Shown piece by piece: positions 9,728 through 24,437 of a DNA stretch of 64,000 nt. Source of the stretch: Micromonospora sp. NBC_01813. GTDB lineage: Bacteria > Actinomycetota > Actinomycetes > Mycobacteriales > Micromonosporaceae. The notes below the pieces were generated by a model. It was not told where the DNA came from. It saw only the letters and a program-made list of their open reading frames with translations, and did no database searches. The position numbers were made by a program, and so were the translations under genes. The stretch's first letter is position 1. The number at the start of each line of letters is the position of its first letter. The stretch lies in the NCBI RefSeq assembly GCF_035917335.1, contig NZ_CP109067.1, positions 684,501 through 748,500 on the forward strand, in the 5' to 3' direction.

Positions 9728-9913
9728 GTGGAGCCGACTCAAATCGAGCTGCGCTGGCGTAAGAGCAGCCGCAGCAACGCCAACGGCGACTGTGTCGAGG
9801 TCGCCCCGGCCAGCAGGGTGGTTGCGGTCCGCGACTCCACCGACCCGACCGGTCCGCGACTGGCCTTCCCCGCCACCGCTTGGCGCTCCTTCGTGGATGG
9901 TCTGCGCGGCTGA
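9728..9913 (+). CDS. DUF397 protein, copy 1 of 3
   Basis: A protein of about 61 residues formed by a single DUF397 domain: LRWRKSSRSNANGDCVEVA, VVAVRDSTDPTGPRLAFP, AWRSFVDGLRG. DUF397 proteins usually sit beside an XRE/DUF5753 regulator in actinomycetes and are thought to be its partner. No regulator is adjacent here. GTG 9728 follows AAGGGAG at a good distance; an ATG at 9695 is a longer option. It is nearly identical to copy 3. Confidence 0.82.
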   Translation: MEPTQIELRWRKSSRSNANGDCVEVAPASRVVAVRDSTDPTGPRLAFPATAWRSFVDGLRG

Positions 9914-10011
9914 CCGAACAGCTTCGGTGCCTTGCGACCGTCAGCGACAGCGCTTTGGCGCAACATGCGTTCAGGGACATGGTTCACCAGGCAGTTGAGG
10001 AGCTACCCCAG

Positions 10012-10227
10012 ATGTATGACCTGACCGGAGCGGTGTGGCATAAGTCCAGCCGCAGCAACAACAGCAACAACTGTGTCGAGGTCGCGACCGGCGTACCGGG
10101 CTGCGACGTGGTTGTCGCCGTACGTGACAGCAAGGAGCGGAGCGGCCCGGTGCTGGTCTTCCGTCGTGGCGAGTGGAAGGCGTTCCTCGCCGGTGCCCAT
10201 GCGGGCGACTTCGACCTGAACCAGTGA
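10012..10227 (+). CDS. DUF397 protein, copy 2 of 3
   Basis: A 71-residue DUF397 protein, more divergent than its neighbours: VWHKSSRSNNSNNCVEVATG, VVVAVRDSKERSGPVLVFRR, EWKAFLAGAHAGDF. The ATG at 10012 has GAGGAG about 9 bases upstream. The next copy begins at or within the stop codon of this one, so copies 2 and 3 are translationally linked. Confidence 0.82.
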   Translation: MYDLTGAVWHKSSRSNNSNNCVEVATGVPGCDVVVAVRDSKERSGPVLVFRRGEWKAFLAGAHAGDFDLNQ

Positions 10228-10229
10228 CA

Positions 10230-10421
10230 ATGGTCAGGCCGACCCCGACCGAGCCGCTGCGGTGGCGCAAGAGCAGCCGCAGCAACGCGAACGGGAACTG
10301 TGTCGAGGTCGCCCCAGTCGGCGGGGTGGTCGCGGTCCGCGACTCCACCGACCCGACCGGCCCGCAGTTGGCCTTCCCCGCTGCCAGTTGGCGCTCCTTC
10401 ATGGATGGCCTACGCGGCTGA
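10230..10421 (+). CDS. DUF397 protein, copy 3 of 3
   Basis: A 63-residue DUF397 protein: LRWRKSSRSNANGNCVEVAP, VVAVRDSTDPTGPQLAFP, SWRSFMDGLRG. It differs from copy 1 at only a handful of positions in the shared core, which points to recent duplication or gene conversion around the more divergent copy 2. ATG 10230 is listed; GTG 10224, overlapping the previous stop, is equally possible. Confidence 0.8.
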   Translation: MVRPTPTEPLRWRKSSRSNANGNCVEVAPVGGVVAVRDSTDPTGPQLAFPAASWRSFMDGLRG

Positions 10422-12028: not shown

Positions 12029-12952
12029 ATGACGATCAACGAGCACATCACCCATCTGGCCGGACTTCCGGTTGTCGCCTTCGACCCGCAGACCGCGCCC
12101 GAGCACGCCGGAGCACCGGTTGCCTGGCGGCTCAGCGTGACCGATGACAAGGGCAGGGACGCCTTCGCCGAGTTGGTCACCACCTGGTTGGACACTGTCG
12201 ACCCGGCGAGCGTGCAGGCGCTGGTCGTCGGCGACTGGGGCAACGCCTGGGACATCGCGTTTCCGGTGCAGGCGCTGGTCGACGCCGCATCCCGGCTGGC
12301 GAACCTGCGGGCCGTGTTCCTCGGCGAGATGACCTTCGACGAGTGTGAGATGTCCTGGATCCTGCAGCCCGACATCACCCCGCTGCTGACCGCGTACCCG
12401 GCGCTGGAGGTACTGCGGGTACGCGGCGCCATGTCGCTGCAGCTGCAAGCCGTCCAGCACACCGGGCTGCGGGAGCTTGCCATCGAGTCCGGCGGGCTGC
12501 CGGCCACCATCACCCGCGCCATCGTGGAAAGCGACCTGCCGAACTGCGCCCACCTCGAACTGTGGCTCGGCACCGAGGACTACGGGCGCGACACAGGCGT
12601 CGACGACCTCGCGCCGATCCTCGACGGCACTCGGCTGCCCGCCCTGCGTACCCTCGGGTTGCGCAACGCCGAGATCGCCGACGAGGTCGCCGCGGCCCTG
12701 GCCACGGCGGCGGTCGTGTCCCGCCTGGAGGTTCTCGACCTGTCGCTGGGCACCCTCGGTGACGACGGCGCCGCCGCGCTGCTCGACGGCCAGCCGTTGA
12801 CCCACCTGCGTCGGCTCGACCTGCACCGGCACTACCTGTCCGACGAGATGATGGCCCGGCTGCCCGCCGCGTTGCCCGGCGTCGACGTCGACGTCACCGA
12901 CCAGGAGGAGGAAGACGAAGACATGGGCCGGTACGTGGCAGTCGGCGAATGA
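12029..12952 (+). CDS. STM4015 family leucine-rich-repeat protein
   Basis: A 307-residue protein that opens the five-gene cassette. Residues 1-110 form a family-specific N-terminal region (HLAGLPVVAFDPQTA, SVQALVVGDWGNAWD). Residues of about 120-290 contain irregular leucine-rich repeats (YPALEVLRVRGAMSLQLQ, LPALRTLGLRNAEIADEV, LEVLDLSLGTLGDDGAAALL, LTHLRRLDLHRHYLSDE). The protein ends in an acidic run and a distinctive tail, DQEEEDEDMGRYVAVGE. LRR proteins usually bind other proteins; here it may be scaffold or substrate for the following enzymes. GGAG lies 9 bases before ATG 12029. I know no biochemical function for this family. Confidence 0.82.
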   Translation: MTINEHITHLAGLPVVAFDPQTAPEHAGAPVAWRLSVTDDKGRDAFAELVTTWLDTVDPASVQALVVGDWGNAWDIAFPVQALVDAASRLANLRAVFLGEMTFDECEMSWILQPDITPLLTAYPALEVLRVRGAMSLQLQAVQHTGLRELAIESGGLPATITRAIVESDLPNCAHLELWLGTEDYGRDTGVDDLAPILDGTRLPALRTLGLRNAEIADEVAAALATAAVVSRLEVLDLSLGTLGDDGAAALLDGQPLTHLRRLDLHRHYLSDEMMARLPAALPGVDVDVTDQEEEDEDMGRYVAVGE

Positions 12953-12972
12953 CCGGTTGTTAACCTCCCCCG

Positions 12973-14085
12973 ATGAGCCACACCGCGCCGCTGGTGGTGG
13001 TCGGCAACCCGGACAACCGGCGGGTCGGCTCGTTTCGGGCCGCCGGGCACGCCGCTGGCCTGCGGGTACACGTGCTGCCCTGGCGGGAGTTGGCCGCCGG
13101 CGACGTCAGCCTGCCCGATCGCGCGCAGGTGCGCATCGACTCACCCGGTGAGGACGCCGAGGTCGACCGGCTGCTGCGCGGTGCCGACCAGCCGCTGGCC
13201 CACGGCGAGATCAGCGGCGGTGCCGCCTGGTACGCCGGGCTGCTCGCCGCGCTCGCCCGGCTGACCGTCGCCGCGCAGCGGGCCGGCGCCACCCTGCTCA
13301 ACGACCCCGCCGACATCGCCACCATGTTCGACAAGGGTGCCTGTCAGCGACGACTTGCCCAGGCCGGGGTGGCGCAACCGGCCGCGCTGGACGACGCGCC
13401 GGCCGACTGGGCGGCGCTGCGGGCAGCGCTGGCCGCCGCCGGTTGGGCGCGGGTCTTCGTCAAACCGGTACACGGCTCGTCGGCCTCCGGCGTGCTGGCC
13501 CTGCACCTGGCCGGTGACCGGGTGCAGGCGGTCACCTCGGTCGAGGCGGCCGACGACGGACGGCTGTACAACTCGCTGCGGCTGCGGGCGTACCGCACCG
13601 AACGCGAGGTGGCGTCGATCGTGGACCGGCTGGCACCGGACGGGTTGCTGGTGCAGCGTTGGTTCCCCAAGGCCGGGCTGCACGGGCGGGTCTTCGACCT
13701 GCGGGTGCTGGTGATCGCCGGCCAGCCCGATCATGTGGTGGTCCGCAGCAGCGAAGGGCCGGTGACCAACCTGCACCTGGGCAACCGGCGCGGCGACCCG
13801 GCAGCGGTACGCGCGGTGCTCGGCCCGCAGCGCTGGCCGGCGGCGCTCGCCGAATGCGTGAGCGCGGCCCGCTGCTTCACCGGCAGCCTGCACGTCGGCG
13901 TGGACCTGATGATCGCAAGTGACTGGCGGCGGCACGCCGTGGCGGAGGTCAACGCCTTCGGGGACCTGCTTCCCGGGGTGTGCGACGACGCCGGGCGCGA
14001 CAGCTACGCTGCCCAACTGCACGCCGTGCGTACCGGCCGGTTTACCGCCTGGCGGGCCGCCGCCGCAATGGAGAGGTCGGCATGA
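12973..14085 (+). CDS. STM4014 family ATP-grasp ligase-like protein
   Basis: A 370-residue protein with an ATP-grasp C-terminal half: RVFVKPVHGSSASGVLAL (nucleotide-binding lysine and glycine-rich loop), LLVQRWFPKAGLHGRVFDLR, NLHLGNRRGD and the metal-binding AEVNAFGDLLPG. The N-terminal half (LVVVGNPDNRRVGSFRAAGH) is a pre-ATP-grasp Rossmann-like lobe. ATP-grasp enzymes join a carboxylate to an amine via an acyl phosphate, so amide or peptide bond formation is the expected chemistry. The substrate is unknown. It lies 20 bases after STM4015 and overlaps STM4013 by an ATGA. Confidence 0.84.
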   Translation: MSHTAPLVVVGNPDNRRVGSFRAAGHAAGLRVHVLPWRELAAGDVSLPDRAQVRIDSPGEDAEVDRLLRGADQPLAHGEISGGAAWYAGLLAALARLTVAAQRAGATLLNDPADIATMFDKGACQRRLAQAGVAQPAALDDAPADWAALRAALAAAGWARVFVKPVHGSSASGVLALHLAGDRVQAVTSVEAADDGRLYNSLRLRAYRTEREVASIVDRLAPDGLLVQRWFPKAGLHGRVFDLRVLVIAGQPDHVVVRSSEGPVTNLHLGNRRGDPAAVRAVLGPQRWPAALAECVSAARCFTGSLHVGVDLMIASDWRRHAVAEVNAFGDLLPGVCDDAGRDSYAAQLHAVRTGRFTAWRAAAAMERSA

Positions 14086-14906
14086 AGGATCTGATCGGCA
14101 GCCACGACCTGCTGTTCGTCACCCTCGACACGCTGCGCTACGACGTGGCGGCCGAGTTGCTCGCCGCCGGTCGCACACCGCAGCTGGCCCGGGCGCTGCC
14201 CGGCGGCCAGTGGCAGCGGCGGCACAGCCCGGCCAGCTTCACCTACGCTGCACACCAGGCGTTTTTCGCCGGCTTCCTGCCCACCCCGGCCGAGCCGGGC
14301 AGCCACCCCCGGCTGTTCGCCGCGAAGTTCCCCGGTGCCGCCACCACTGACGAACACACCTGGATCTTCGACGCCCCGGACCTGGTCACCGCGCTGCGCA
14401 AGGAGAGCTACCACACCGTCTGCGTCGGCGGCGTCGGCTTCTTCAACCGGGCCTCACCGTTGGGAGCGACCCTGCCCGGCCTGTTCACCGAGGCGCACTG
14501 GGAGCCGACGTTCGGGGTGACCGCACCGGCCTGCTTCGAAGCCCAACTGGACCGGATCGCCGAGGTCGTCCCGGCGGTGCCGGCCGACCAGCCACTGTTC
14601 CTGTTCGTCAATGTCGCCGCCATGCACCAGCCGAACCGGCACTACCTGCCCGGCGCCGACCGTGACAACCGGGACAGCCACGCCGCCGCTCTGGAGTACG
14701 TCGACCAGCACATCGGCCGACTCTTCGCCACGATGACGTCCCGCGACCGGCCGTGCATGACGATCATCTGCGCCGACCACGGCACCGCGTACGGCGAGGA
14801 CGGACACAGCGGGCACCGGGTCGGCCACGAGGTGGTGTGGACGGTCCCGTACGCCGACTTCGTGCTCGCCCCCGGGTCGTGGTCCGCCGCGGCCGAGTCA
14901 CCGTGA
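14082..14906 (+). CDS. STM4013 family alkaline-phosphatase/sulfatase-fold hydrolase
   Basis: A 274-residue member of the alkaline phosphatase superfamily. The N-terminal metal site and nucleophile are in LLFVTLDTLRYDV (Asp16 with Thr17 in the nucleophile place). The second metal cluster is CADHGTAYGEDGHSGHRVGH (Asp232, His233, His242, His245 and His249 are candidate ligands). The C/S-X-P-X-R sulfatase maturation signature is absent, so a phospho- or phosphonate-ester hydrolase or phosphotransferase is more likely than a sulfatase. No signal peptide is present, so it is cytoplasmic. ATG 14082 overlaps the upstream stop. Confidence 0.82.
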   Translation: MKDLIGSHDLLFVTLDTLRYDVAAELLAAGRTPQLARALPGGQWQRRHSPASFTYAAHQAFFAGFLPTPAEPGSHPRLFAAKFPGAATTDEHTWIFDAPDLVTALRKESYHTVCVGGVGFFNRASPLGATLPGLFTEAHWEPTFGVTAPACFEAQLDRIAEVVPAVPADQPLFLFVNVAAMHQPNRHYLPGADRDNRDSHAAALEYVDQHIGRLFATMTSRDRPCMTIICADHGTAYGEDGHSGHRVGHEVVWTVPYADFVLAPGSWSAAAESP

Positions 14907-16249
14907 CCGTGCTCGGGCTCGGGGCATCCGTCGGCGGGCTCGACGGTTCGCCGTACCAGGGATATCTGTACGGCTACCCGCACAAGACCGCGTACCGACC
15001 GCTGCGCCCCCGCCCGGCGTTGCGTGACGTCTGGTCCGGGCAGCGACGTGACGCGCTCTTTCTCTACCTGCACCTGCCGTTCTGCGAGATGCGGTGCGGC
15101 TTCTGCAACCTGTTCACCCGGTCGAACCCGCCGGCCGGGCAGGTGCGCGCGTACCTGGATCAGCTGCACCGCCAGGCGGACCGGGTGTCCGCCGCGCTCG
15201 GCGACGACGCCCGGGTCGCCCGGGTCGCGGTCGGCGGCGGCACCCCGACCTACCTGGACGCGGCCGAGCTGGCCGAGCTGTTCGACCTGATCGACCGGTT
15301 CCGCCCGGCCGGCACCCCGACGGCGGTGGAGACCTCGCCGGCGACCGCGACCCCGGATCGTCTCGCGGTGCTCGGCGCGCGGGGCACCAGCCGGATCAGC
15401 ATCGGCGTGCAGAGCTTCCTGGACGCCGAGGCGCGGGCCGCCGGCCGGCCGCAGCGGCGCAGCGAGGTCGAGCAGGCCCTGGCCGCCATCCGCGATCAGC
15501 CGATCGGCGAGCTCAACATCGATCTCATCTACGGCATCCCCGGTCAGACACCGGCCACCTGGGAACAGTCGTTGGCGGCGGCGCTGCGCTGGGCGCCCGA
15601 GGAGCTGTTCCTCTATCCGCTGTACGTCCGCCCGCTCACCGGGCTGTCCCGACGTGCCCCGGCAGACCTGCCTGATCCACAGTGGGACGACCAGCGGCTG
15701 GCGCTCTACCGGCAGGGCGTCGACCGGCTCCGGGCCGCCGGCTACCGGCAACTGTCCATGCGACATTTCCGCCTGGCGCGGCTGCCGGACGACGTCACCG
15801 GCGAATACTCGTGCCAGGACGACGGCATGGTGGGGCTCGGCTGCGGTGCCCGTTCGTACACCACCGACCTGCACTACTCGTTCGACTACGCGGTCTCGGT
15901 CAGCCAGGTACGGGCGATCATCGACGACTATCTCAGCCGGCCGGAGTCCGACTTCGACCACGCCGAGGTCGGGTACCGGCTCGACGTCGACGAGCAACGC
16001 CGACGGTGGCTGATCACCTCGCTGCTGCGCGCCGACGGCTGCGACCCGCTCGGCTACACCGACCGGTTCGCCAGCCACCCGCTCGACGACTTCCCGCAGT
16101 TGGCGGTGCTCGCCGACCGGGGCTGGCTGACCGTGACCGCCGACCGGTTGGCGCTGACCGACACCGGGCTGGCCTACTCCGACGCGATCGGCCCGTGGCT
16201 GGTCTCCGGCCCGGTCCGCGCCGCGATGGCCAGTCTGCCGACCCGATGA
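14903..16249 (+). CDS. STM4012 family HemN-like radical SAM protein
   Basis: A 448-residue radical SAM protein with CX3CX2C at Cys61, Cys65 and Cys68 (LHLPFCEMRCGFCNLF). The glycine-rich motif VAVGGGTPTYL and HemN-type blocks RISIGVQSF and LNIDLIYGIPGQT follow. It belongs to the HemN/HemW superfamily but differs from true coproporphyrinogen dehydrogenase, and its genomic partners are not haem genes. GTG 14903 overlaps the STM4013 stop in a GTGA. The C-terminal half has a winged-helix-like region (RWLITSLLRADGCDPLGY). The expected chemistry is a radical modification of an unknown substrate. Confidence 0.86.
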   Translation: MTVLGLGASVGGLDGSPYQGYLYGYPHKTAYRPLRPRPALRDVWSGQRRDALFLYLHLPFCEMRCGFCNLFTRSNPPAGQVRAYLDQLHRQADRVSAALGDDARVARVAVGGGTPTYLDAAELAELFDLIDRFRPAGTPTAVETSPATATPDRLAVLGARGTSRISIGVQSFLDAEARAAGRPQRRSEVEQALAAIRDQPIGELNIDLIYGIPGQTPATWEQSLAAALRWAPEELFLYPLYVRPLTGLSRRAPADLPDPQWDDQRLALYRQGVDRLRAAGYRQLSMRHFRLARLPDDVTGEYSCQDDGMVGLGCGARSYTTDLHYSFDYAVSVSQVRAIIDDYLSRPESDFDHAEVGYRLDVDEQRRRWLITSLLRADGCDPLGYTDRFASHPLDDFPQLAVLADRGWLTVTADRLALTDTGLAYSDAIGPWLVSGPVRAAMASLPTR

Positions 16250-17175
16250 CCAGTCTGCCCGACCCGGTGATCAGACCCGCCGACCCGGTGATCAGGTCCG
16301 GTGATCCGGTGACCGGGCCCCGGGAGCTGAGCATCCTCTACCGGGGGCCGCTGGCCAGCTGCAACTACGACTGCCCGTACTGCCCGTTCGCGAAGCGGCG
16401 CGACGACCCGGCGGCGCTGCGGGCCGACCGGGCGGCGCTGGAGCGCTTCGTCGACTGGGTCGAGCGCAACCCGCACGGCGACCGGATCTCGGTGCTGTTC
16501 ACCCCGTGGGGTGAGGCGTTGACCCGGTCGTGGTACCGGCGGGCGCTGCTGCGCCTGGCCGAGCTGGAGCAGGTGCAGCGGGTCGCGATCCAGACCAACC
16601 TGGCCGCCCGGCTGGACTTCCTCGCCGACGCGACCGCCGCCGCACTGGGCCGGCTGGCGTTCTGGGCCACGTACCATCCCGGCCAGGTCGACCCGGACCG
16701 TTTCCTGCGGCAGTGCGCGACGCTGCGTACGCTCGGGCTCCGGTTTTCGGTGGGGATGGTCGGCCTGCCGGAGCACCTGGGGTCGGCGCGGTCGATGCGG
16801 GCCGCGCTGCCCACCGAGGTCTACCTCTGGGTGAACGCCGCCGACGGGCACCGCTACGACGCGGCGCAGGAGCAGGAGTGGGCCGGGGTCGATCCGCTGT
16901 TCGGTTACAGCGTCCGCCCGCACCCGTCGGCCGGTCGGTCCTGCCGTACCGGCGAGTCGGTGATCTCGGTGGCCGGCGATGGCACGGTCCGCCGCTGTCA
17001 CTTCGTCGCCGAGCCGCTGGGCAACCTCTACGACGGTTCCTACCGGGCGGCGCTCGGTCCGCGTCCGTGCCCGCTGGCGACCTGCGACTGCCACATCGGC
17101 TACGTGCATCTGCGGACCCTGCCGCTGTACGACGTCTTCGCCGGCGGTGTCCTCGAACGCATCCCTGCCCGCTGA
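16246..17175 (+). CDS. STM4011 family radical SAM protein with C-terminal cysteine cluster
   Basis: A 309-residue radical SAM protein with CX3CX2C at Cys39, Cys43 and Cys46 (SCNYDCPYCPFAKR) and the GE-type motif LFTPWGEALT. Five more cysteines at 233, 251, 275, 280 and 282 (GRSCRTGE, VRRCHF, CPLATCDCH) form a SPASM/twitch-like region that could hold an auxiliary iron-sulfur cluster, as in peptide-modifying radical SAM enzymes. The first 24 residues are an odd repeat (DPVIRPADPVIRSGDPV) encoded by near-identical DNA units. It overlaps STM4012 by an ATGA and ends the operon. The SPASM assignment is by cysteine pattern only. Confidence 0.84.
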   Translation: MTSLPDPVIRPADPVIRSGDPVTGPRELSILYRGPLASCNYDCPYCPFAKRRDDPAALRADRAALERFVDWVERNPHGDRISVLFTPWGEALTRSWYRRALLRLAELEQVQRVAIQTNLAARLDFLADATAAALGRLAFWATYHPGQVDPDRFLRQCATLRTLGLRFSVGMVGLPEHLGSARSMRAALPTEVYLWVNAADGHRYDAAQEQEWAGVDPLFGYSVRPHPSAGRSCRTGESVISVAGDGTVRRCHFVAEPLGNLYDGSYRAALGPRPCPLATCDCHIGYVHLRTLPLYDVFAGGVLERIPAR

Positions 17176-17176
17176 C

Positions 17177-17213
17177 GCCCCGCCCAAGATCGCGCGCCCC
17201 GCCCAAGATCGCG
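17177..17213. repeat. Two 18-base direct repeats after STM4011
   Basis: GCCCCGCCCAAGATCGCG occurs at 17177-17194 and again at 17196-17213, one base apart, directly after the STM4011 stop. The AAGATCGCG part also matches the arms of the hairpin that follows, so this looks like a nested palindromic repeat element. Confidence 0.7.
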
Positions 17214-17272: not shown

Positions 17273-17280
17273 CCGGGCAC

Positions 17281-17320
17281 GGGGCGGCACGGGGCGGCAC
17301 GGGGCGGCACGGGGCGGTCA
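17281..17320. repeat. 10-base tandem repeat
   Basis: GGGGCGGCAC is repeated three times and followed by a variant, GGGGCGGTCA, whose last bases contain the stop codon of the leftward glycosyltransferase gene. It is a short simple-sequence tract likely to vary in copy number. Confidence 0.8.
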
Positions 17321-20364: not shown

Positions 20365-22230
20365 TCAGTTCTGGTGCTTGCGCCGGGCCTGCGACCGGGC
20401 CCGGGTGGTCTGGTCGAGGATGACCTTGCGCAGCCGGATCGCCTCGGGCGTCACCTCGACGCATTCGTCTTCCCGGCAGAACTCCAACGCCTGCTCGAGG
20501 GAGAGCTTGCGGGGCGGGACCAGCCGCTCCAGCTCGTCGGCGGTCGACGACCGCATGTTGGTGAGCTTCTTCTCCTTGGTGATGTTGACGTCCATGTCGT
20601 CGAGGCGGGAGTTCTCGCCGACCAGCATGCCCTCGTACACCGGGGTGCCGGGCTCGACGAAGAGCGAGCCGCGCTCCTGCAGGTTGAACATGGCGAAGCT
20701 GGTCGCCACCCCGGTACGGTCGGCGACCAGCGAACCGGTCGGCCGGGTACGCAGCTCGCCGAACCACGGCTCGTAGGACTCGAAGACGTGGTGCAGGATG
20801 CCGGTGCCGCGGGTCTCGGTGAGGAACTCGGTCCGGAAGCCGATCAGCGCACGGGCCGGGACCAGCCACTCCATCCGGATCCAGCCGGTGCCGTGGTTGA
20901 CCAACTGCTCCATCCGGCCCTTGCGGGTGGCCAGCAGCTGGGTGATGGCCCCCAGGTAGTCGTCCGGGGCGTCGATGGTCAGCCGTTCCACCGGCTCGCA
21001 GGTGCGTCCGTCGATCTCCCGGGTCACCACCTGCGGCTTGCCGACGGTCAGCTCGTACTGCTCGCGGCGCATCTGCTCGACCAGGATCGCCAGGGCAAGC
21101 TCACCGCGGCCCTGTACCTCCCACGCGTCGGGGCGTTCGGTGGGCAGCACCCGCAGCGAGACGTTACCGATGAGCTCGCGGTCCAGCCGGTCCTTGACCA
21201 GCCGGGCGGTGACCTTCGAGCCTTTGACCTTGCCGGCCAGCGGTGAGGTGTTGGTGCCCAGGGTCATCGAGATGGCCGGCTCGTCGACGGTGATCAACGG
21301 CAGCGGCCGTGGGTCGTCGGCGTCGGCCAGCGTCTCGCCGATCATGATGTCGGGGATTCCGGCGACCGCGATGATGTCGCCCGGCCCGGCGGAGTCGGCC
21401 GGTTTGCGCTCCAGGCCCTCGGTCATCAGCAGTTCGGAGATCCGGACCTTCTGCTGGCTGCCGTCGGTGCGGCACCAGGCGACGGTCTGGCCCTTGCGGA
21501 TGTTGCCCTGCCGGACCCGGCACAGCGCGAGCCGGCCGAGGAACGGTGAGGCGTCGAGGTTGGTCACGTGGGCCTGCAGCGGCGCGTCCGGGTCGTAGGC
21601 GGGCGCGGGGATGGTCTCCAGCAGGCTGCGGAACAGTGGTTCGAGGTTGTCGCTGTCTCCGGGCACGGATCCGTCGGCGGGCTGGGTGAGTGAGGCGATG
21701 CCGTCGCGGGCGCAGGCGTAGAGGATCGGGAAGTCGATCTGCGCCTCGTCGGCGTCGAGGTCGAGGAAGAGTTCGTACGTGTCGTCGACGACCTCTTTGA
21801 TCCGGGCGTCCGGCCGGTCCACCTTGTTGATCACCAGGATGATGGGCAGCCGGGCCTGCAGCGCCTTGCGCAGTACGAAGCGGGTCTGTGGCAGGGGTCC
21901 TTCGCTGGCGTCGACCAGCAGCAGGACGCCGTCGACCATGGTGAGGCCGCGCTCCACCTCGCCGCCGAAGTCGGCGTGCCCCGGCGTGTCGATGATGTTG
22001 ATGACGACCGGGTCACCCTGGTCGGGCAGGTAGGTGATCGCGGTGTTCTTGGCCAGGATGGTGATGCCCTTTTCCCGCTCCAGGTCCATGGAGTCAAGCG
22101 CGCGGTCGGACATTTCAGCACGGGTGTGCAGTTGGCCGCCTTGGCGCAGCATCGCGTCAACCAAGGTGGTCTTACCGTGGTCGACATGCGCGATGATGGC
22201 CACGTTGCGGAGATCGGAGCGGGTCTGCAT
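20365..22230 (-). CDS. typA: Translational GTPase TypA/BipA
   Basis: A 621-residue ribosome-binding GTPase. G1 is IAHVDHGKTTLVDAML, G3 IIDTPGHADFGGEVER and G4 VINKVDRPDAR. Domain II and EF-G-like domains III and V follow (GRGELALAILVEQMRREQYE, IGFRTEFLTETRGTGIL) with the TypA-specific C-terminal domain (SLEQALEFCREDECVEVTP). It assists 50S assembly and stress adaptation. ATG 22230 has GGGAGG about 9 bases upstream; further upstream reading lacks homology. Confidence 0.96.
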   Translation of the reverse strand: MQTRSDLRNVAIIAHVDHGKTTLVDAMLRQGGQLHTRAEMSDRALDSMDLEREKGITILAKNTAITYLPDQGDPVVINIIDTPGHADFGGEVERGLTMVDGVLLLVDASEGPLPQTRFVLRKALQARLPIILVINKVDRPDARIKEVVDDTYELFLDLDADEAQIDFPILYACARDGIASLTQPADGSVPGDSDNLEPLFRSLLETIPAPAYDPDAPLQAHVTNLDASPFLGRLALCRVRQGNIRKGQTVAWCRTDGSQQKVRISELLMTEGLERKPADSAGPGDIIAVAGIPDIMIGETLADADDPRPLPLITVDEPAISMTLGTNTSPLAGKVKGSKVTARLVKDRLDRELIGNVSLRVLPTERPDAWEVQGRGELALAILVEQMRREQYELTVGKPQVVTREIDGRTCEPVERLTIDAPDDYLGAITQLLATRKGRMEQLVNHGTGWIRMEWLVPARALIGFRTEFLTETRGTGILHHVFESYEPWFGELRTRPTGSLVADRTGVATSFAMFNLQERGSLFVEPGTPVYEGMLVGENSRLDDMDVNITKEKKLTNMRSSTADELERLVPPRKLSLEQALEFCREDECVEVTPEAIRLRKVILDQTTRARSQARRKHQN

Positions 22231-22259
22231 GGCTCTATCCTCCCGGAATCCGGTTGGCC

Positions 22260-22299
22260 GCCCGCCAGCGGGTCCGCCAGGATCACCCAGCTGGCGGGC
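22260..22299 (-). terminator. Hairpin between the MMPL gene and typA
   Basis: GCCCGCCAGC (22260-22269) and GCTGGCGGGC (22290-22299) form a perfect 10-bp stem with a 20-base loop, just after the MMPL stop on the minus strand and before typA. It is likely a terminator or attenuator. The long loop lowers confidence. Confidence 0.5.
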
Positions 22300-22307
22300 G
22301 TTACCGG

Positions 22308-24437
22308 TCACCGCAGGTCAACGGCAGCGGCGTGGGGTGGGCGCAGGCCCTCGGCCGGGTCGGTCGGCGGGGTCGGGTCGGGTCGGCGGGCGAGCGCGCC
22401 GGGCCACCAGAATCGGCGTCCGAGCACCATCGCGATCGCCGGCACCAGCAGGGTCCGCACGAGCAGGGTGTCCAGCAGTACGCCGAACCCGACGATGATC
22501 CCGATTTCGGTGAGGGTGACCAGTGGCAGTACCCCGAGGACGGCGAAGACCGCGGCGAGCAGGATGCCGGCACTGGTGATCACCCCGCCGGTGACGGCCA
22601 GCGCGGTCCGCATCCCCTGCCGGGTGCCCTGGGTGGGGGTCTCCTCCCGGGCCCGGGTGGTCAGGAAGATGTTGTAGTCGACGCCGAGGGCGACCAGGAA
22701 CAGGAACGCCAGCAGCGGCACGCTGGTGTCCAGCGCGGGGTAGCCGAGGACCTGGGTGAACAGGGTGGTGGCGGCGCCGAGCGCGGCGAAGAAGGTGGCG
22801 ACGACGGTGCCGACCAGGATCAGCGGCGCGATCAGGGAGCGCAGCAGCACGATCAGCACCGCCAGCACCACGACGAGCACCAGGGGTACGACGACCCGTA
22901 GGTCGCGCAGGGCCGCTTCGCGGGTGTCCAGGTTGGCGGCGACGGATCCGCCGACCAGGGCGTCGGCGTCGGGTACGGCACCGACGGCGGCCCGTAGGTC
23001 GCGGACGGTCTGGTAGCTCTGGGCGCTGTCCGGCTCGGCCCGCAGGACGACCTCGATGACGGTGAGGTCGTCGCTGCCGCCGGTGGGTCGGGCACTGGCC
23101 ACCCCGTCGACGGTGCCGGCGGCGTCGAGTACCTGTTGTTCGCGGCCGGCGTCGGCGATGACGAGGACCGGGTCGGCGGTGCCGGCCGGGAATGACCGGG
23201 ACAGGGTGGCCAGGCCGTCGATCGATTCGGCGCTGACCCGGAACTGTTCGGTCTTGCTGAGTCCGAGCCGGGCGTCGAACAGTCCGGTGGCGAGGACGGC
23301 GAGCAGCAGCACCGATCCGGCCAGGACGGTACGGGGGCGGCGGCTGACCAGGTTGCCGGCGCGGGCCCAGATCCCGGTACGGGTGGGGTCGGCCTGTCCG
23401 GGACGGGGGACGAAGGGCCAGAACAGTCCGCGTCCACAGACGGACAGGGCGGCGGGCAGGACGACGAGTCCGTACAGGGCTGCGGTGCTGATGCCGACGG
23501 CGCCGGCGACGCCGATCGCCCGGTCGTTGGCGAGGATCGCGGCGAGCAGGGTGAGCAGGCTGAGTACGACGGTGAGGGCGCTGGCGGTGATCGCCGGTCC
23601 GGCGGAGCCGAGGGCGCGGCGCAGCGCGTGGCGGCGGTCGGGTTCGCGGCGTAGTTCCTCGCGGTAGCGGGCGATGAGCAGCAGGGCGTAGTTGGTGCCG
23701 GCGCCGAAGACGAGGACGTCGACGATGCCGGTGGTGGACGGGTCGATCCGCAGGTCGATAGCGCGGCTGACGATGGCGATGAGTCCGTTGCTGACCACGT
23801 CGGCGGTGCCGACCACGGCGAGCGGGACGAGCCACAGCCAGGGGCTGCGGTAGGTGATCAGCAGCAGAGTGGCGACGACGGCGACGGTGGCGGCGAGCAG
23901 GGTGACGTTGGCGCCGTCGAAGGCCGCCGCGACGTCGGCGGTGAATCCGGCGCCGCCGGTGAGTTCGGCGGTGGCGCCGGCGGGCAGGCCGGCGCGGGCC
24001 TCGGCGCGCAGCCGGTCGACGATGTCGCCGAGCCGTTCGATGTCGATCTCGGCCGGGAGCGGGACGGCGACCAGCGCGGCGGTCCGGTCGGGTGCGAAGA
24101 CGGGTGGGCTGACCTCGCCGCCGACGGCGTCGCGGGCGAAGGCGTCGCGGTCGGCGGCGATGGCCGCTTCGTCGGCGGCGGTGAGTGGGCGGCCGTCGCG
24201 GGAGTAGACGACCAGTGCCGGGTTGAGCTGCCCGCCTGGCAGTTGCCGGCGCAGTTCGGCGACCTGGACGGACTCGGCGGTGTCGGGCAGGGCGCCGGTG
24301 GGGTCGTTGCCGGTGCGGGGGTCACCGGCGAAGGTGATCACCAGGGTGGAGAAGGCCGCTGCGGCGAGCAGCACCAGCCAGGCGCTCCATCTGCCGCAGA
24401 TGATCGCGGTCAACCGGGATCCGATCGTGGTTGCCAT
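22308..24437 (-). CDS. MMPL family (RND-type) membrane exporter
   Basis: A 709-residue RND/MMPL transporter with two similar halves, each a membrane helix, a periplasmic domain and a block of about five helices. The sterol-sensing-like motif is DVLVFGAGTNYALLLIARYR in half one and LVALGVDYNIFLTTRAREET in half two. The second keeps the GVDY acidic pair used for proton coupling, while the first has GAGTNY instead. It probably exports lipids or drugs. It diverges from a MarR regulator across 116 bases, so it is the expected target. The start is ATG 24437. Confidence 0.9.
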   Translation of the reverse strand: MATTIGSRLTAIICGRWSAWLVLLAAAAFSTLVITFAGDPRTGNDPTGALPDTAESVQVAELRRQLPGGQLNPALVVYSRDGRPLTAADEAAIAADRDAFARDAVGGEVSPPVFAPDRTAALVAVPLPAEIDIERLGDIVDRLRAEARAGLPAGATAELTGGAGFTADVAAAFDGANVTLLAATVAVVATLLLITYRSPWLWLVPLAVVGTADVVSNGLIAIVSRAIDLRIDPSTTGIVDVLVFGAGTNYALLLIARYREELRREPDRRHALRRALGSAGPAITASALTVVLSLLTLLAAILANDRAIGVAGAVGISTAALYGLVVLPAALSVCGRGLFWPFVPRPGQADPTRTGIWARAGNLVSRRPRTVLAGSVLLLAVLATGLFDARLGLSKTEQFRVSAESIDGLATLSRSFPAGTADPVLVIADAGREQQVLDAAGTVDGVASARPTGGSDDLTVIEVVLRAEPDSAQSYQTVRDLRAAVGAVPDADALVGGSVAANLDTREAALRDLRVVVPLVLVVVLAVLIVLLRSLIAPLILVGTVVATFFAALGAATTLFTQVLGYPALDTSVPLLAFLFLVALGVDYNIFLTTRAREETPTQGTRQGMRTALAVTGGVITSAGILLAAVFAVLGVLPLVTLTEIGIIVGFGVLLDTLLVRTLLVPAIAMVLGRRFWWPGALARRPDPTPPTDPAEGLRPPHAAAVDLR

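Follow-up and report, generated by a model that had tools for sequence, protein, structure and literature searches.

A five-gene STM4015-STM4011 cassette of Micromonospora as a candidate protein-borne modification pathway with a conserved C-terminal glutamate

What might a leucine-rich repeat (LRR) protein, an ATP-grasp ligase, an enzyme of the alkaline-phosphatase superfamily and two radical S-adenosylmethionine (SAM) enzymes do together, and on what would they act? The question is raised by the STM4015-STM4014-STM4013-STM4012-STM4011 cassette of Micromonospora sp. NBC_01813, five plus-strand open reading frames (ORFs) at positions 12029-17175 of a 64,000-nucleotide stretch of DNA that we call the window (C1:684501-748500, in a genome of one contig of 7.6 Mb). 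A preliminary description of this DNA had named the five families and the overlaps that join the last four genes, and both statements stand. Each protein exceeds the cut-off of its NCBIfam model (Table 1), and 4-base overlaps can be read directly at the junctions (ATGA at 14082-14085, GTGA at 14903-14906 and ATGA at 16246-16249), with a gap of 20 bases between STM4015 and STM4014. The five genes form an operon. The LRR protein is the likely peptide substrate or carrier of the system, because the last residue of its C-terminal tail is almost always Glu and the ligase lies near enzymes that act on protein or peptide carboxylates. This role was not foreseen in the preliminary description.

Table 1. 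Features of the cassette in window coordinates, with proposed roles and the evidence for each (pI, isoelectric point; AF2, AlphaFold2; paired bit scores are score/cut-off)
Feature	Position	Strand	Evidence
STM4015: acidic LRR protein, proposed carrier/substrate	12029..12952	+	307 aa, pI 4.31; NF038076 365/275 bits; AF2 LRR model and 2RA8 match
Variable acidic linker ahead of STM4015 tail	12896..12928	+	A7 column entropies, residues 290-299, mean 2.2 bits
STM4015 C-terminal tail RYVAVGE-COOH; Glu307 is the proposed attachment site	12929..12949	+	terminal Glu conservation
STM4014: ATP-grasp ligase, proposed loader	12973..14085	+	370 aa, pI 8.81; NF038074 403/175 bits; profile, AF2, Foldseek
STM4013: alkaline-phosphatase-superfamily enzyme	14082..14906	+	NF038075 414/250 bits; PF00884; alignment A4; PDB matches
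STM4012: HemN/NocN-like radical SAM enzyme, GTG start	14903..16249	+	NF006067 595/380 bits; A5; PDB 1olt, 9p2u
STM4011: radical SAM enzyme, five C-terminal Cys, SPASM/twitch-like	16246..17175	+	NF038073 389/200 bits; A1; PDB SkfB

The view that these genes make up one coupled system kept across phyla is supported by our locus survey, in which an ORF was counted only with a match above 60 bits. By ORF matches, 93 of the 97 STM4011-bearing loci (the window included) are complete and on one strand, of which 85 are plain, seven have a tandem STM4015 pair and one has a split STM4012. A tblastn check added L030, where STM4014 and STM4013 share a reading frame, so that all five genes stand in order at 94 of the 97 loci. 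Such a shared gene order is far beyond chance. The 97 loci correspond to 96 distinct ones, and the 107 STM4015 proteins found in them to 106, since L015 and L098 have the same proteins and are seemingly one contig. The incomplete loci are L019, which has a deletion, and L088 and L092, which lie at contig ends. At L019, from a Bacteroides finegoldii plasmid record (9572-11530), STM4013 is a remnant, STM4012 is missing and STM4011 is fused to a HAD phosphatase, an arrangement that could be an assembly error.

Complete cassettes were found in Actinomycetota, Deinococcota, Bacillota, Pseudomonadota and Cyanobacteriota. A tblastn search of plasmids with STM4011 gave 13 records, from Streptomyces, Embleya, Nonomuraea, Deinococcus, Methylobacterium, Paenibacillus, Bacteroides and Salmonella, 11 of which were analysed. 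The scan of genome contigs gave at least 538 confirmed relatives; 80 were kept, 57 of them from Paenibacillaceae. Among 296 Actinomycetota genomes, STM4015, STM4014 and STM4011 each exceed their cut-offs in the same six, including the genome of the window. Matches below the cut-off, for the STM4014 model in 53 and for the STM4011 model in six further genomes, were read as generic relatives. In the phylum of L105, STM4015 exceeds its cut-off in one of 299 genomes, which is the genome of that locus itself, and in the phylum of L107 it does so in four of 194, again with the genome of the locus included. In the window's own family STM4013 exceeds its cut-off in 108 of 280 sampled genomes, and the whole cassette is present at 19 of 20 loci drawn from the STM4013-positive ones.

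STM4015 ends in a tail of fixed length, in most copies R-[YF]-x-x-x-x-Glu-COOH. All 107 STM4015 proteins of the first set have the terminal Glu; 104 have Arg at -6, and at -5 there is Tyr in 84 proteins, Phe in 20 and Ser or Asn in three. Position -1 is always Thr, Gly, Ser or Ala in this set (Trp, Tyr and Asp were seen in later copies). For the other four cassette proteins, the commonest final residue accounts for no more than 22-43% of the sequences. In an alignment of 70 rows (A7) the column entropy is 0 at Glu307 and 0.3 bits at Arg301 (96% Arg), and it rises to 1.1-1.7 bits at the residues between them. A fresh set from the window's family has the terminal Glu in 22/22 proteins and R[YF]xxxxE in 19/22. 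The tail is likewise present in four of six newly fetched copies distant from a cassette, in five of six copies at three cyanobacterial loci and in both members of a tandem pair in G871. Overall, the terminal Glu is found in 140 of 143 STM4015 copies, a count that leaves out four partial N-terminal matches in L155 and a sub-cut-off match in L158, and for which extra copies were sought in 28 of the 80 genome-contig loci. Tail-less sister copies occur in Streptomyces at L142 and L143, away from the cassette. The cyanobacterial cassette L155 has four diverged STM4015 genes, three with the tail and a tail-less fourth between STM4012 and STM4011. Reading in three frames revealed no tail in another frame near any of these three copies.

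Pfam gives no LRR match for the window's STM4015; its LRR fold is taken from an AF2 model with a mean predicted local distance difference test (pLDDT) score of 92.5, and the best PDB match of this model is 2RA8, a solved Bacteroides fragilis homologue with 32% identity. Most paralogues, whether tandem or scattered, retain the tail despite differing LRR parts. The N-terminal parts are variable and include a WGR domain in Bacteroides. Both this variation and the copies far from the cassette, as expected of targets, would suit a permanent modification, in which STM4014, like RimK acting on S6, would extend STM4015 with amino acids and the end product would be the modified LRR protein itself, for instance a binding or regulatory protein. 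RimK is also among the fold matches of STM4014. Mere tail extension would hardly call for two radical SAM enzymes and a phosphatase-fold enzyme, however, and we consider this explanation rather unlikely.

What kind of ligase is STM4014? A profile of eight STM4014 sequences finds LysX as its best PDB matches (1uc8 and 1uc9, E 7e-6), followed by 3vpd, also titled LysX; these E-values near 1e-5 refer to about 66 positions, a part of the domain. The AF2 model (mean pLDDT 93.4) has as Foldseek neighbours PsnB with its precursor, ArgX with LysW, LysX/ArgX with LysW-gamma-AAA, DcsG and RimK, at query template modelling scores of about 0.5-0.6. Most of these neighbours activate a protein or peptide carboxylate; DcsG and the D-Ala ligases do not. 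D311 and N327 are invariant in 66 rows and are presumably the ATP-grasp metal ligands. Near as it is to LysX/ArgX by profile and fold, STM4014 is placed in its own family, NF038074. Carrier and ligase have opposite charges: STM4015 has a median pI of 4.36 and a charge of -29, and STM4014 and STM4011 are mildly basic, with median pI values of 8.26 and 7.96. STM4015 and STM4014 are also the least conserved members when the window is compared with other actinomycetes (45-57% and 48-59% identity, versus 67-70% for STM4011).

These observations lead us to a reading by analogy, to which we give about an even chance: the cassette would be a protein-borne modification pathway, in which STM4014 ligates an amine to the terminal Glu of STM4015 and the radical SAM and phosphatase-fold enzymes work on the attached group. 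STM4015 would be a dedicated acidic LRR protein that presents its tail. STM4014 would activate a carboxylate of the tail Glu with ATP and join to it an amine, most simply an amino acid, comparable to LysX on LysW and RimK on S6. STM4012 and STM4011 would then use carbon-centred radicals to change the tail or the group on it. STM4013, together with lineage-specific phosphoryl enzymes (an adenylyl-sulfate (APS) kinase in part of the Paenibacillaceae and a Cof-type HAD protein in Salmonella and Bacteroides), might handle a phosphate step or the release, and the product may be released or stay bound to the protein.

STM4013 matches PF00884 and has D16, T54, D232 and H233 invariant in 9/9 sequences (A4), which we take to be the set of the single-metal phosphotransferases of the alkaline-phosphatase superfamily; its solved relatives are nucleotide pyrophosphatases (NPP) and sulfatases. 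In STM4012 the three Cys of the cluster motif C61-X3-C65-X2-C68 are invariant in seven sequences (A5), and its profile aligns to HemN (1olt) over positions 13-414 and to NocN (9p2u) over positions 41-310. It resembles these class C radical SAM enzymes in this alignment and differs from them in lacking a fourth Cys right after the cluster motif, which we assume to be part of the HemN motif, and in having a separate NCBIfam equivalog. The likeness of STM4012 to HemN, HemW and HutW might mean that the cassette branches off a known cofactor pathway, that of haem or another one. This is highly improbable, as STM4012 reaches 595 bits with the model of its own family and falls short of the cut-offs of HemN (132/325), HemW (130/205) and HutW (150/400 bits), and the Salmonella record has hemN too. 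An assignment to haem synthesis, which the preliminary description named as a possible refutation, thus mostly fails.

STM4011 has a CX3CX2C motif and five C-terminal Cys, all invariant in nine aligned sequences (A1), and among solved structures it best matches the C-terminal part of SkfB (E 5e-4). The SPASM-like Cys cluster claimed earlier therefore survives only in weak form. The clustered Cys and the SkfB match speak for it, but Pfam SPASM, in the two members tested, gave no match in the window's protein and 18.3 bits, below the cut-off of 21.5, in a Bacteroides member. STM4011 further departs from SPASM/twitch maturases in having five C-terminal Cys in place of the seven that we take to be usual, and in its weak profile match. 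A SPASM-like enzyme, an aromatic residue at -5 and a Glu at the end would fit a maturation like that of ribosomally synthesised and post-translationally modified peptides, in which radical SAM chemistry would cross-link the tail as core peptide before it is excised, as we assume for PqqA. The residue at -5 varies, being Phe, Ser or Asn in 23 of the 107 proteins, and a Tyr-specific, PqqA-like reaction is therefore unlikely. NCBIfam and Pfam gave no peptidase match for any of the five proteins, and a 300-residue LRR protein would be an odd leader, so that we regard this explanation as quite improbable.

Some cassettes have further neighbours. An APS kinase gene follows STM4011 at 22 of 58 Paenibacillaceae loci (including L044, L063 and L079) and is not found at the other 36; at 13 of the 22 its start codon may overlap the STM4011 stop by 4 bases. 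Its identity was checked on one of the 22 genes. A Cof-type HAD gene overlaps STM4011 in Salmonella, and the Bacteroides STM4011 carries a fused HAD domain. We read both neighbours as signs of a phosphorylated intermediate, although the APS kinase may simply serve sulfate assimilation. A DUF6745 gene, whose product ends in YxPxxx[TA], and a gene for a His-rich protein of about 100 residues (GEVTGHSH, QREYxP) adjoin the cassette at 26 of the 97 loci and at 7 of 20 in the window's family (for example L029:1980-3444 and L022:10893-12190). We rejected DUF6745 as a core part, since it is limited to these 26 loci, is found at 0/57 Paenibacillaceae loci (L031-L087) within the fetched flanks and occurs without STM4015 in five of the 296 Actinomycetota genomes. 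A role in anti-phage defence was also rejected, as PADLOC gives only a match of STM4012 to PDC-M51A (26.5 bits over 77 residues) and none for the other four proteins.

Several observations weigh against a pathway on the STM4015 tail. STM4013 can occur without its partners: G845 has a lone STM4013 (L177, 8119-8940) between uvrB-like and TerC-like genes, as we label them, which is the site of the cassette in the window. Its genome has no STM4015, and the other three families are absent from the locus. G905 also has STM4013 without STM4015 in the genome. The idea that the genes usually occur apart, named earlier as a possible refutation, fails for the great majority of loci and holds for these two genomes. 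Three of the 143 STM4015 copies are tail-less, though each of their genomes also has a tail-bearing copy. Apart from R301 and E307, the tail positions are conserved no better than the LRR part (A7). The tail may pack on the LRR as a cap, because residues 301-307 have a pLDDT of about 80 in the AF2 model, i.e. are not predicted to be floppy, and because Foldseek lists 351 residues for the 362-residue chain of 2RA8. The C-terminal Glu may also serve as a docking signal. A fixed chain end alone is no proof of a reaction there, because DUF6745 (T in 23/26, A in 3/26) and the adjoining small protein (D in 26/26) have conserved chain ends as well. Finally, DcsG and the D-Ala ligases, which take free amino acids, are among the fold neighbours of STM4014.

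Such ATP-grasp relatives, together with the small phosphorylated compounds that the accessory APS kinase and HAD proteins suggest, are what one might expect if STM4014, STM4013, STM4012 and STM4011 used a soluble substrate and STM4015 were only a docking scaffold or chaperone whose tail binds an enzyme. The strictness of the terminal residue exceeds the needs of docking, and several of the best fold matches of STM4014 were solved with their peptide or carrier protein; we find such a free small-molecule pathway unlikely.

If the cassette is instead a protein-borne modification pathway, does it belong to a known system? In the LysW system, LysX links an amine to LysW through the gamma-carboxyl group of its last residue, Glu54; LysW contains Zn-binding Cys and ends in EDWGE, and an ArgW E54A mutant is an arginine auxotroph (PMC10433800). 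STM4015 likewise ends in Glu, and of all solved structures LysX/ArgX come nearest to STM4014 in the profile search and are among the top matches by fold. STM4015 is, however, a 307-residue LRR protein with the tail RYVAVGE, it has no invariant Cys in A7, and neither the Zn-binding Cys nor the EDWGE end of LysW is found in it. The cassette moreover has radical SAM enzymes where we take the LysW system to have LysZ, LysY, LysJ and LysK, for which no search was made. The cassette would work like a carrier or tail-ligation system but lacks defining features of the LysW family. The graspetide ligases PsnB and MdnC, which act on peptide carboxylates, share the fold of STM4014, but identity is only 17-20% to PsnB and 12% to MdnC. 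The packed cassette of the window has no short graspetide precursor and no room for one, and the clustering of neighbours covered only ORFs of at least 80 residues; nothing we found supports membership in this group. RimK, which adds Glu to a protein C-terminus, shares the fold too, but STM4014 reaches 21.1 bits against the RimK family TIGR00768, with a cut-off of 143.4.

The surroundings of the cassette in the window show some features of their own. A tandem array of about 21 bases x 3.5 spans the STM4012/STM4011 junction (16224-16295), and perfect tandem repeats lie just 3' of the cassette at 17176-17213 (19 bases x 2) and 17276-17317 (10 bases x 4.2). Neither Rfam, at the gathering threshold, nor a tRNA search gave a match. 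Two small overlapping ORFs at 9880-10421 presumably resemble DUF397 proteins. What we take to be a TypA-like gene (20365-22311) follows the cassette at a distance of no more than a few kb and on the other strand; an annotated one in Salmonella (L018:11623-13446) is placed likewise, which is probably chance.

The five families already had names, and these names imply that the genes are linked. The preliminary description held them to be without an assigned function, and within the open-access literature, which mostly leaves out subscription journals, this is borne out: no function of the cassette was found, and the STM40xx names appear only in tables or in one remark on a paralogue. The same literature gave nothing on DUF6745 or on a combination of LRR, radical SAM and ATP-grasp proteins, and within it the STM4015 tail and its tie to the class of the ligase seem to be newly observed here. 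More tentatively, STM4015 could be the first LRR-type carrier, with the radical SAM enzymes building an unusual amino-acid-like or nucleotide-like compound on its terminal Glu; in some genomes one enzyme set would be fed by several carriers, including ones encoded far from the operon. The cassette is complete in five phyla and its STM4013 is found in 108 of 280 genomes of the window's family, yet its function is missing from that literature. The tail offers a single testable residue, which could decide whether the two radical SAM enzymes serve a protein-borne biosynthetic route of a new kind.

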